Of a stretch of 22,623 nt of DNA, positions 512 through 5,131 are shown in pieces. The notes beneath the pieces were generated by a model. It made no database searches and was not told where the DNA came from. It saw only the letters and a list, made by a program, of their open reading frames with translations. The stretch is from positions 1 through 22,623 of IMG/VR virus record IMGVR_UViG_3300048836_000254, one strand, 5' to 3'. The position numbers and the translations under genes are program-made. The DNA is from a virus. How positions within the stretch are numbered: the stretch's first letter is position 1; each line of letters opens with the position of its first letter.

Positions 512-619
512 GACATTGATACAGACGAAACCTGACAGGGTACTGTAACGGTAAGGCCTTATTACTCATGCTATAGCGGCAGTGTGGTACGGGTTCGCGT
601 GCATATGCGTCGAAAAATT

Positions 620-632
620 TTTACATTGTAAA
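620..632. promoter_or_regulatory. Operator-like palindrome TTTACA-T-TGTAAA
   Basis: A perfect 6-bp inverted repeat around a single T. The 10-mer ACATTGTAAA within it recurs at 929-938, so the two copies bracket the TGGCACG array. It may be a repressor or initiator binding site. Confidence 0.4.
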
Positions 633-652
633 TATCGCATGTTCGATTTGAT

Positions 653-892
653 TGGCACGGTATTTGTTCGACGAATCACGCGACGAATGGCACGCGATTT
701 GATTCGTACATTGTCGATGATTGGCACGCGATTTGATTCGTGATCGTGTCGAATCGACGCACGAATGGCACGCACATTGCACACGCGAAATGATCGACGC
801 ATGGCACGACATTTGCACACGACAATCGACGTGCCAACGTGACGCGATTTCGACACGTTGCATAATTGTCACACGTTGCAATCGACGTGCCA
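653..892. repeat. Seven-copy array of TGGCACG-N4-TTG elements
   Basis: Five copies lie on the plus strand (starting at 653, 688, 722, 766 and 802) and two on the minus strand (836-821 and 892-877). In all seven, TGGCACG is followed by exactly four variable bases and TTG. Copies at 766, 802 and 892 continue as TTGCA. This is the -24/-12 consensus of sigma-54 promoters, TGGCACG-N4-TTGCW. Plus-strand spacing is 35, 34, 44 and 36 bases. Alternative roles are origin iterons, partition sites or operators. The array is certain; its function is not. Confidence 0.8.
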
Positions 893-1039
893 TCATCATT
901 CGCATTCGTGATCGACCGTCACAATTTAACATTGTAAAACTGACATCATTTCGTCGAAATGTTGCACGATTGTTCGACGACGTGTCGATATCGTGTATAT
1001 TGATATTGTCGATCGACGTTCGATCGACACACGCAACGC

Positions 1040-1285
1040 ATGACACGAAATGATGACACAATGAACAACGCAACCGCACGCAAATCAATCAATCGCATTC
1101 GACGCAACGCGACACGCACGATGCAATCGATCGCAATGTCGATCGACGATGCGACGATCGACGACGCAACGCGTATGCAATCGATTCGCGCCTTCACACG
1201 TGCAATCGACGACGCGTGCAACGCGTTCGCAACGTCGATGCACGCGATCGACGCGAACGACGACGACGACGCGATCGACGCGTGA
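1040..1285 (+). CDS. Small hypothetical protein of restricted composition
   Basis: This frame encodes up to 81 residues. It starts at ATG 1040 or, seven codons later, at ATG 1061; no ribosome binding site is possible in this composition. The product is rich in Ala, Asp, Arg, Ile and Thr and lacks Gly, Pro, Leu, Val and Glu. It has alternating IDDA/TRAIDDAC-like helical turns and a DDDD tail. Its first 24 bases are 21/24 identical to those of the next gene (1381-1404), which argues that both starts are functional. It could still be a compositional artefact. Confidence 0.42.
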   Translation: MTRNDDTMNNATARKSINRIRRNATRTMQSIAMSIDDATIDDATRMQSIRAFTRAIDDACNAFATSMHAIDANDDDDAIDA

Positions 1286-1300
1286 TCGACGCACAACGCA

Positions 1301-1331
1301 CGACACGCGACGATGACACGTCGCGTTGTCG
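1301..1331 (+). other. Hairpin between the two small genes
   Basis: CGACACGCGACG (1301-1312) pairs with CGTCGCGTTGTCG (1319-1331) with one bulged base and a six-base loop. No T tract follows. A second long hairpin, GTGACAAC/GTTGTCAC outside CGCGAT/ATCGCG (1343-1380), ends directly at the ATG at 1381 and may control access to that start. Confidence 0.45.
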
Positions 1332-1380
1332 ATTCGCAAATCGTGACAACACGACGCGATCGTATCGCGTGCGTTGTCAC

Positions 1381-1704
1381 ATGATACGAAACGATAACAC
1401 AATGCGTATCGACGAATACGACGCGATGATGTTCGCACAATCACAATCGATCGCGTGCGAACAAGCGACAATGTTACAAATGATCGATTTGCTGCACGAA
1501 CGCATTAATACGATTCTCGAAACACACGCTGAACACGAACGCGATAATATCGTGATTCGTCGATTCATCGTAATGTACGATCAATTGTGCGAAATGTTCA
1601 CAACACTTGATCCGACGACGACACCCGTTATCGACGATGATGCGTTGTACGACGACGCGACGTTTCGTGATTTGTTGATCAAACACGCGAACGATGATCA
1701 ATAA
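1381..1704 (+). CDS. Small acidic helical protein of unknown function
   Basis: This frame encodes 107 residues from ATG 1381, or 100 from ATG 1402 (MRIDEYDAMMFAQSQSIACE). It looks more like a real protein than its upstream neighbour. It has a long helical segment (residues about 15-60 of the shorter form) with heptad-like hydrophobics, then an acidic tail containing VIDDDALYDDATF. It lies inside the AG/CT-poor block and shares its near-duplicate start region with the gene at 1040. A well-formed terminator (1721-1753) follows the stop, which supports a transcribed unit. No family recognised. Confidence 0.62.
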   Translation: MIRNDNTMRIDEYDAMMFAQSQSIACEQATMLQMIDLLHERINTILETHAEHERDNIVIRRFIVMYDQLCEMFTTLDPTTTPVIDDDALYDDATFRDLLIKHANDDQ

Positions 1705-1720
1705 TCGACACAACGCACGC

Positions 1721-1753
1721 CACAACGCGATCAAACGTCGCGTTGTGTTATTT
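1721..1753 (+). terminator. Intrinsic terminator after the 1381-1704 gene
   Basis: CACAACGCG (1721-1729) pairs perfectly with CGCGTTGTG (1739-1747) around a nine-base loop, and TTATTT follows. Unlike most of the other hairpins in the window, it has a reasonable T tract. Confidence 0.65.
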
Positions 1754-1800
1754 CGCACATATACACGACGCGACCGTATCGCGTCACATTATCAATAGGA

Positions 1801-1840
1801 CGATCAAGCGCGATCAAGCGCGATCAAGCGCGATCAAGCG
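1801..1840 (+). repeat. Four perfect tandem copies of CGATCAAGCG
   Basis: Four exact 10-bp units run directly into the AAGGAG ribosome binding site (1841-1846) of the next gene. The period is close to one helical turn, so a protein could bind each unit on the same DNA face. In the mRNA the units can pair in alternative CGC/GCG registers next to the ribosome binding site. Confidence 0.9.
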
Positions 1841-1851
1841 AAGGAGACAAG

Positions 1852-2124
1852 ATGGACGAACAAGCGAACAAGTCGACAATCGACAGCGGCGAAGTCGTGG
1901 ACATGATCCTCGATTTGATCGACAACGCGGCAACAGCGTTGGACGTTCTGACGGGGCTCGACCCACAAGACGATGAAGTGGCGATCGACACGTTGCACGA
2001 ATTGATCGACGCTGACTTCTACGAGTCGTGCTCGCACACACGACGCGAGGCGAATCGGCCGATCATCGACGTGGTGATGTCAGACGGCCGCGTGTTTCGT
2101 GTCACGGTCGAAGAGTTGAAGTGA
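1852..2124 (+). CDS. Hypothetical acidic protein, 90 aa
   Basis: The ATG follows AAGGAG at a six-base spacing. Residues 12-56 are acidic and helical (VVDMILDLIDNAATALDVL, then DTLHELIDADFYESC). Residues 66-90 form a likely two-strand hairpin (RPIIDVVMSDGRVFRVTVEELK). I recognise no family. It is the first gene after the AG/CT-poor block, and normal dinucleotide use resumes here. The upstream 10-bp tandem repeat may regulate it. A hairpin at 2132-2157 follows the stop. Confidence 0.82.
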   Translation: MDEQANKSTIDSGEVVDMILDLIDNAATALDVLTGLDPQDDEVAIDTLHELIDADFYESCSHTRREANRPIIDVVMSDGRVFRVTVEELK

Positions 2125-4474: not shown

Positions 4475-5131
4475 CGCATCACCGCCTTTCTTTCTTCCTC
4501 ACCGGCATGATCGCACAACCACCCCAACTGCCAGCCTCCCATCTACCATCATCCGCCCACCCCCGTCATCGCCCTCTTAGCCTTCGATCACACCCGCCCC
4601 CCAAACACATACACACCCAAACGCCCATTTTTCCGCGTTCGTCACCCAAACCAACGTCCACAGGCGAATGCGGATAATCCTATCTATCTATCCTAATACT
4701 CACCTAATAATCATCAAATCATCGATATCATCGTCAAATCGCCGTCGGTTTGGCTCCCGTCGCTCCCAACCCTCCGCGTTCACGCAATATTTTCATAACA
4801 AACCATCATGCCCAAACCATCACACCCAAACCAATCCCGAAATCGTCGAATGCGGATTTTTTCGCTCGAACGCGGACTTTTTTCGACCGTCGCGCCCAAA
4901 AAGGCCCCGACACGCAACCGCCCGATGTTCGCCTTTTGTTCGTATACCGCACTATCGCTCGCATACAAACGGCGTGCCAAACACCCCAAATACCGTCACA
5001 AACCGTCACAAAGATTTTATTTTATTTTCTTACCCTTTTCGTTTGAGTTCGTCGATATACGTGGCATCATTCATTGTGTCGATCGCGTGTGCGGCCGACA
5101 CCTCACCCAACCGCCTTGATAGGAGCATATC
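4475..5131. other. Gene-free divergent spacer with strand asymmetry and repeats
   Basis: No convincing gene lies in these 657 bases. The plus strand is C-rich and G-poor, with CTAT repeats near 4681. CCCAAACCA occurs three times (near 4647, 4808 and 4827) and CGTCACAAA twice near 4996. The core CGAAYGCGGAY followed by a run of six T recurs near 4850 and 4870, while the inverse core CCGCGTTC occurs near 4632 and 4777. A weak minus-strand promoter candidate (TTGATG, 16 bases, TAGGAT) lies near 4690-4720. Because the spacer separates divergent units, it probably carries promoters or an origin. Confidence 0.6.

Follow-up and report, generated by a model that had tools for sequence, protein, structure and literature searches.

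A 1.2-kb zone nearly free of RG and CY dinucleotides in a virus genome fragment, and similar zones in related phages

Genes and regulatory elements at the locus

The window analysed here, an entire virus record of 22,623 bases (a 22.6-kb fragment), carries a replication module comprising an SNF2-type helicase, a PD-(D/E)XK nuclease, Sak4, an ssb-like protein and a primase-helicase, with the replication genes in the same order as in Krampusvirus and Wollypogvirus; a terminase small subunit and a RuvC-like gene are also present. To the right of a minus-strand gene that starts at 454 lies a block in which the RG and CY steps are nearly absent. Its promoter-like elements, repeats, hairpins and genes, together with those at its right edge, are listed in Table 1.

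Table 1 Features of the RG/CY-free block and its right edge (window coordinates).
Feature	Position	Strand	Remarks
RG/CY-free zone	593..1796	both	AG, GG, CT, CC nearly absent
Near-palindrome TTTTACATTGTAAA	619..632		left of array; possible operator
Sigma-54-like -24/-12 element	653..666	+	TGGCACG-N4-TTG; consensus match (PMC2245857)
Sigma-54-like element	688..701	+	TGGCACG-N4-TTG
Sigma-54-like element	722..735	+	TGGCACG-N4-TTG
Sigma-54-like element	766..779	+	full TGGCACG-N4-TTGCA
Sigma-54-like element	802..815	+	full TGGCACG-N4-TTGCA
Sigma-54-like element	823..836	-	TGGCACG-N4-TTG
Sigma-54-like element	879..892	-	full TGGCACG-N4-TTGCA
Near-palindrome, second copy TTTAACATTGTAAA	925..938		right of array
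Gene 1 (74 aa)	1061..1285	+	likely coding; no Gly or Pro; no Shine-Dalgarno
Hairpin 3' of gene 1	1301..1331	+	terminator-like; fold z -2.85
22-nt repeated element	1349..1370	+	before gene 2; 95% identity to 1763-1784
Gene 2 (100 aa)	1402..1704	+	acidic (charge -14); no Gly; at synonymous floor of ban
Hairpin and T-rich tail 3' of gene 2	1721..1747	+	terminator-like; fold z -3.00
22-nt element, second copy	1763..1784	+	before gene 3
CGATCAAGCG, four tandem copies	1801..1840	+	right block edge
Gene 3 (90 aa)	1852..2124	+	acidic; normal Shine-Dalgarno; partial-depletion shoulder, chiefly sense CY

The initial annotation had only named the TGGCACG elements; as judged from their letters, all seven in the block match the published sigma-54 promoter consensus (TGGCACG-n4-TTGCW; PMC2245857) with fixed spacing, and would be candidate promoters. 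Each of the seven (five on the plus and two on the minus strand) carries N4-TTG, and three extend to TTGCA. Across the window, TGGCACG is followed by N4-TTG in 8 of 8 intergenic versus 0 of 3 intragenic copies, the eighth element lying on the minus strand at 4966-4979. This copy falls within 4475-5131, a C-rich, G-poor intergenic stretch in which AG occurs at about one-third and CT at about one-half of expectation. The window proteins scanned include no recognisable sigma-54 activator.

Of the six GG and ten CC steps in the block, five and two, respectively, are located in this array, which indicates that the ban gives way to the requirement of a binding site for GG. We rejected the array as the cause of the ban, since perfect arrays occur on other IMG/VR contigs that show no ban. 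Near-perfect tandem TGGCACG-N4-TTGC arrays were observed on contigs L063, L086, L050, L066, L117, L059, L097 and L067, repeating every 17-19 bp in some and every 34-38 bp in others, and none of these contigs shows the ban; the arrays could be promoter clusters or sigma-54 decoys.

We then compared the genes with all of their possible synonymous codings. Gene 2 contains 8 banned steps, against a minimum of 7 over all synonymous codings and 47.7 ± 4.4 in random codings drawn from the phage's codon usage, and the other five frames of the locus have minima of 1-5; these values make it very likely that gene 2 is a real gene and that its exceptions to the ban are nearly all forced. Its product is predicted to be all-helical, at a mean pLDDT of 60. 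Gene 1 contains 3 banned steps (minimum 1, random 25.3) and is likely coding, with less support than gene 2. Not one of the 174 residues of the two proteins is Gly, and inspection of the exceptions revealed that, wherever a forced step left a choice on the sense strand between RG and CY, CY is used. Gene 3 holds 39 banned steps (random 58.6, minimum 22), and the proportion of avoidable banned steps kept runs from 0.46 in gene 3 to 0.68, 0.87 and 1.00 in the next three genes rightward.

Composition of the block

Within 593-1796 we counted 23 RG/CY steps (AG, GG, CT, CC), against approximately 284 expected from the remaining window; the best-scoring segment was 593-1797, with 23 banned among 1200 steps versus 23.7% outside (log10 P approximately -104). 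The near-absence of these four steps reported in the initial annotation is therefore real, and its figures of one AG and about six CT were reproduced: 596-1796 contains AG 1, CT 6, GG 6 and CC 10, with odds of 0.01, 0.09, 0.10 and 0.12, respectively, whereas the same steps have odds of approximately 0.7-0.8 in the remaining window. The CG odds inside the block are 2.64. Plus-strand GG, described earlier as confined to TGGCACG, has one further occurrence at position 659, in CACGGTA, which overlaps the first element at its end. Coding and non-coding DNA are depleted alike, as had been claimed, with observed/expected ratios of 0.09 in the promoter-like region, 0.05 in gene 1, 0.00 in the first spacer, 0.12 in gene 2 and 0.09 in the second spacer.

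The edges, noted as sharp, are so in that the nearest RG outside the block lies at 592 on the left and 1797 on the right, but on the right a shoulder of partial depletion runs from gene 3 onward. Similarly, both strands are affected through the near-absence of RG and CY together, but with a slight asymmetry on the plus strand outside the TGGCACG elements (2 RG versus 14 CY, two-sided P = 0.004).

Sliding-window ratios across the window showed the depletion to be local. The lowest values in the block were 0.023 (300 bp), 0.039 (600 bp) and 0.085 (1200 bp), whereas the minima over 1.89 Mb of other viral loci were 0.53, 0.63 and 0.70, respectively. The window outside the block has RG/CY at 0.80 of expectation, although the whole window is mildly low (median 0.79 versus approximately 0.93 in relatives). 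We defined a dinucleotide-free zone as at least 400 bp in which one complementary dinucleotide set stands below approximately 0.1 of expectation; the window block, at 0.08 over 1205 bp, is such a zone, from which one strand-symmetric set has been removed roughly to the limit set by the encoded proteins. Since the depletion extends equally to both strands and to coding and non-coding sequence, the constraint appears to act at the level of the DNA.

Two origins had been offered for the block, neither as established: a process removing C before a pyrimidine (deamination or RIP-like) and selection against a recognised dinucleotide. An exclusion model, in which RG and CY were set to zero in the phage's own first-order transition matrix and the matrix was renormalised, predicted the frequencies of the other 12 dinucleotides in the block with a KL of 0.0052 bits/step, compared with a sampling noise of 0.0036 on average and 0.0112 at 99%. 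C-to-T conversion before Y gave 0.14-0.17 bits/step, other single conversions 0.08-0.11, and any tested spectrum restricted to the G in RG or the C in CY at least 0.034. Random change of either base until the banned steps were gone gave 0.008, near noise, which is the result to be anticipated when variants arise by unbiased mutation and the step is eliminated by selection. These results clearly indicate that the composition of the block is one of exclusion and not of deamination; the first option is rejected for the window block, and the second is strongly supported, the exceptions being mostly forced by protein. Among 69 models, the best donor of the block at third order was the window's own genome, so that the block looks native.

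Comparable blocks in related phages

Searches with the proteins of gene 2, gene 3 and the gene left of the block, with the helicase, with the repeat pattern and by blastn of the first 8 kb revealed no close relatives of the window block in the collections covered. More distant relatives were gathered by primase-based searches (approximately 30% identity), yielding about 65 primase-related IMG/VR records, of which most were read. TG/CA blocks were found in eight records (G002, G008, G034, G035, G036, G038, G040 and G056), with TG/CA at 0.02-0.13 of expectation over approximately 0.5-1.0 kb, and G016 contains a 454-bp intergenic stretch without GA/TC (0 versus 52.6 expected). Set against the zone definition, the banned set of these nine relatives stands at 0.00-0.13, and the remainder of their loci keeps the step at 0.91-1.18. 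Per-record minima over the ten complementary classes were bimodal, at 0.00-0.03 in block records versus at least 0.11 in the others; G063 (GA/TC, 0.21) and G046 (TG/CA) are weaker cases, and an AC/GT signal in G044 was discarded as a simple repeat. All block sequences are metagenomic, and the eight TG/CA blocks do not count as eight independent origins because the TG/CA phages share ancestry. RG/CY, GA/TC and TG/CA zones are three separate states, which we infer to be one kind of zone.

The recurrence of blocks across records effectively excludes an artefact (assembly error, synthetic DNA or low-complexity sequence). The window block is somewhat repetitive (563 distinct 6-mers versus 640 ± 23 under the first-order model), but first-order statistics account for most of this, and low complexity was rejected as the cause; moreover, the same kind of block occurs in separate IMG/VR records, most from different metagenomes, the exceptions sit at protein-forced positions, and in its other statistics the block matches the window's own genome.

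Five TG/CA block genes contain 3, 2, 3, 1 and 3 banned steps, of which 2, 2, 2, 1 and 2 are unavoidable, versus 34-44 under random coding. Their products lack Cys, His and Gln, have a single Met, at the start, and no more than one Trp. Homologous block genes are only 20-56% identical, and the family had no significant match in PDB, Pfam or phage records. Family members outside blocks (G001, G041 and elsewhere in G002) have 11-13 TG/CA per 100 bases, and Gln and additional Met occur in their products; since these distant members have ordinary TG/CA, the ban belongs to the place and not to the protein.

In G036 and G056, the block genes have no ATG near the expected start, and ATC and ATA, following Shine-Dalgarno-like sequences, probably serve instead. 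Block genes with an apparent ATC or ATA start after a Shine-Dalgarno-like sequence, and without ATG, lie in L288 near 7977 and L327 near 8760, where the ban seems to extend to the start codon. Such starts bear on a translational rule, by which neither strand would carry stray Shine-Dalgarno sequences (under an RG ban) or stray start codons (under a TG ban). An RG ban does remove Shine-Dalgarno cores, a TG ban removes ATG, GTG and TTG, and genes 1 and 2 of the window both lack a Shine-Dalgarno; yet real genes preceded by good Shine-Dalgarno sequences occur in the TG/CA blocks, two of them apparently without an ATG start, and the ban covers non-coding DNA on both strands, so we give this rule a very slim chance.

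We investigated whether the ban persists over divergence in the TG/CA blocks. The G002 contig carries two diverged copies of its own block, which over 422 aligned bases and 99 substitutions retain 3 TG/CA in each copy, versus 26.2 ± 3.9 under random placement. Between the G040 and G038 blocks, 238 substitutions left 2 TG/CA versus 58.5 ± 6.1 expected, whereas a homologous control flank outside the block showed no effect (40 versus 41.8 expected). With 2 steps left where approximately 58 would arise at random, the constraint is maintained: TG/CA exclusion is upheld against ongoing substitution in the TG/CA pairs tested. Tens to hundreds of substitutions were thus taken up by homologous blocks and the banned step was not created, which again supports selection against a recognised dinucleotide. 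Furthermore, a profile search with the block genes matched G056 at 48705-49166, a stretch unread until then, and the predicted stretch turned out to be a 721-bp block free of TG/CA, the eighth of its class.

The relatives also bear on a local context-dependent mutator or editor (deaminase or RIP-like) that would remove the step while proteins shield only forced positions. TG-to-CG conversion fits several TG/CA blocks (KL 0.008-0.038) and is about as good as exclusion with a GC shift for some of them, but conversion is rejected for the window (0.08-0.17 versus 0.005) and for G016 (at least 0.17 versus 0.007 with a GC shift). A different mutator would be needed per phage, and conversion fails in two of three classes; we therefore consider this explanation very unlikely.

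In the window, G002 and G040, RuvC-like and terminase genes are found no more than a few kilobases from the zone, and the block is 0-0.9 kb from a contig end in five records (the window, G002, G008, G035 and G038), which would fit a zone near the genome end, contig ends not being proof of this. A gene-content link to the TG/CA blocks was set aside, as the clusters mostly look structural or terminase-related and are confounded by ancestry.

Several further observations were made in these loci. An unnamed phage protein family with a C-terminal RWE...YxGRGxR motif (alignment A2; L128:9108-9644, L219:1658-2122 and L174:9575-10090) occurs inside TG/CA-free blocks and, outside them, with ordinary composition. 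A hairpin-like motif close to CCCGCTAATAGGGG recurs near block edges in L133, L131, L287 and L347, and also in L326, and may serve at these sites as a common terminator or promoter element. IMGVR_UViG_3300046533_000294 (129.8 kb; L131, L133 and L174) apparently consists of two diverged tandem genome copies of approximately 64.6 kb, with a TG/CA-free block at the copy junction and at both contig ends. Partial GA/TC depletion was seen in stretches without obvious genes, at L347:12144-13072 (0.21) and in Arthrobacter phage Wollypog (L158:22714-23534, approximately 0.39, in a 1.3-kb annotation gap); the latter could offer a cultivable case.

Possible mechanisms and known systems

The zones would be explained by an enzyme that reads a two-base motif and acts along the phage DNA, for which the zone must carry no site. 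The preferred candidate would be the phage's own base-modification enzyme, and a zone free of modified bases might let early promoters, an origin or packaging sites work on virion DNA. That the zone is kept free of the sites of a dinucleotide-reading enzyme, likeliest a phage base-modification enzyme, is the best explanation we can offer, and we hold it tentatively. Its fuller form, a phage-specific mark written genome-wide at one dinucleotide set, with the early control region and its resident gene left without it, is possible but rather doubtful; avoidance would then go as far as dropping Gly here, and Cys, His and Gln and even ATG starts in the relatives.

A search for modification genes, covering incomplete contigs and known families, revealed none among six families (PF06508, PF00145, PF01702, PF18723, PF00303 and PF01555) that tracks with the blocks. 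Nearly every block record lacked QueC, C5 methylase, TGT, 5hmdU kinase, ThyA-type synthase and N6/N4 methylase, G008 alone having a C5-methylase match. RG/CY fits no modification context known to us. Known hypermodified phage DNA (PMC6449724) carries modified T in a TG or TC context; TG and TC (GA) are two of the three banned sets here, which is a resemblance and not a test. Among the primase relatives, L160 (Weizmannia phage Youna2) and G010 have queuosine-type genes, G011 has a weak 5hmdU-kinase match, and L159 has an annotated pyrimidine hydroxymethylase and methylases; no near-absolute block was found in the parts of these four that were read.

A purge of targets for a host defence with a two-base motif (CRISPR PAM or frequent cutter), acting mainly on first-entering DNA, is an unlikely alternative. 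The zone genes would then be early counter-defence proteins, and genes 2 and 3 are small and acidic; an NRG PAM would give exactly RG/CY, PAM depletion in phages is documented (PMC12174588, PMC4246573), the block lies close to a contig end in the five records named above, and T5, with no EcoRI site in its first 20 kb, is a precedent of a kind. However, documented PAM depletion is mild and genome-wide, whereas the step is kept in the remaining window (0.80) and the remainder of the other loci (0.91-1.21), where a single cut or protospacer should also kill.

It is quite unlikely that a step-reading phage or host DNA-binding protein coats the genome and leaves the zone bare as a silencing or condensation boundary. 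The local extent of the zone, its strand symmetry and its sharp edges are compatible with this, the same data as for the enzyme-site explanation, but there is no candidate, and two-base recognition is unusual for a coating protein. We see only a slim chance for a replication rule in which the zone lacks primase initiation sites and hence stays unprimed on either strand: the DnaG start sites CTG, CTA and CCC are all CY (PMC5429622), and the zone may adjoin an origin or separate gene arms, but all TG/CA is banned and not only CTG, GA/TC misfits the DnaG site, and there is no known reason to ban priming. The primase rule fails for at least one banned set, and so does the translation rule.

In open-licence papers we found no description of dinucleotide-free zones, and the block is one case of what seems to be an undescribed type of DNA zone, maintained by selection in the TG/CA pairs compared. 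Related phages have such zones purged of different dinucleotides, so that the step missing from a zone offers a hint, legible from sequence, of what an unseen enzyme recognises; this provides a direct, testable prediction per phage and a sequence-only route to such zones, and perhaps to new DNA-modification or defence enzymes in uncultured phages.

We compared the block with known systems. Its seven elements fit the sigma-54 (RpoN) promoter pattern TGGCACG-n4-TTG, but are closely spaced and in both orientations, and the array is dispensable for the ban, as other blocks have none. RIP and deaminase hypermutation likewise lose C before particular bases over a short stretch, but the block lacks a conversion-product signature; exclusion fits it and conversion fails. 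The hypermodified phages M6, ViI and phi W-14 share single dinucleotides as the unit, TG and TC among them, but there the step is modified, a step-free zone is not described in the portion of the source consulted (PMC6449724), and their enzymes were not found in the block phages. CRISPR PAM depletion (PMC12174588, PMC4246573) is likewise selection against a very short motif, the type I-F dinucleotide CC included, but is mild and genome-wide, whereas the depletion here is close to total and limited to 0.5-1.2 kb. The first-step-transfer DNA of phage T5 is similarly a leading region without a target, but EcoRI has a 6-base site, whose absence can be chance, whereas here a 2-base step is expected hundreds of times. 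The T5 region has a role in early entry. A zone of approximately 1 kb purged to the limit of the genetic code is, to our knowledge and among the papers searched, stronger than any other phage sequence avoidance.
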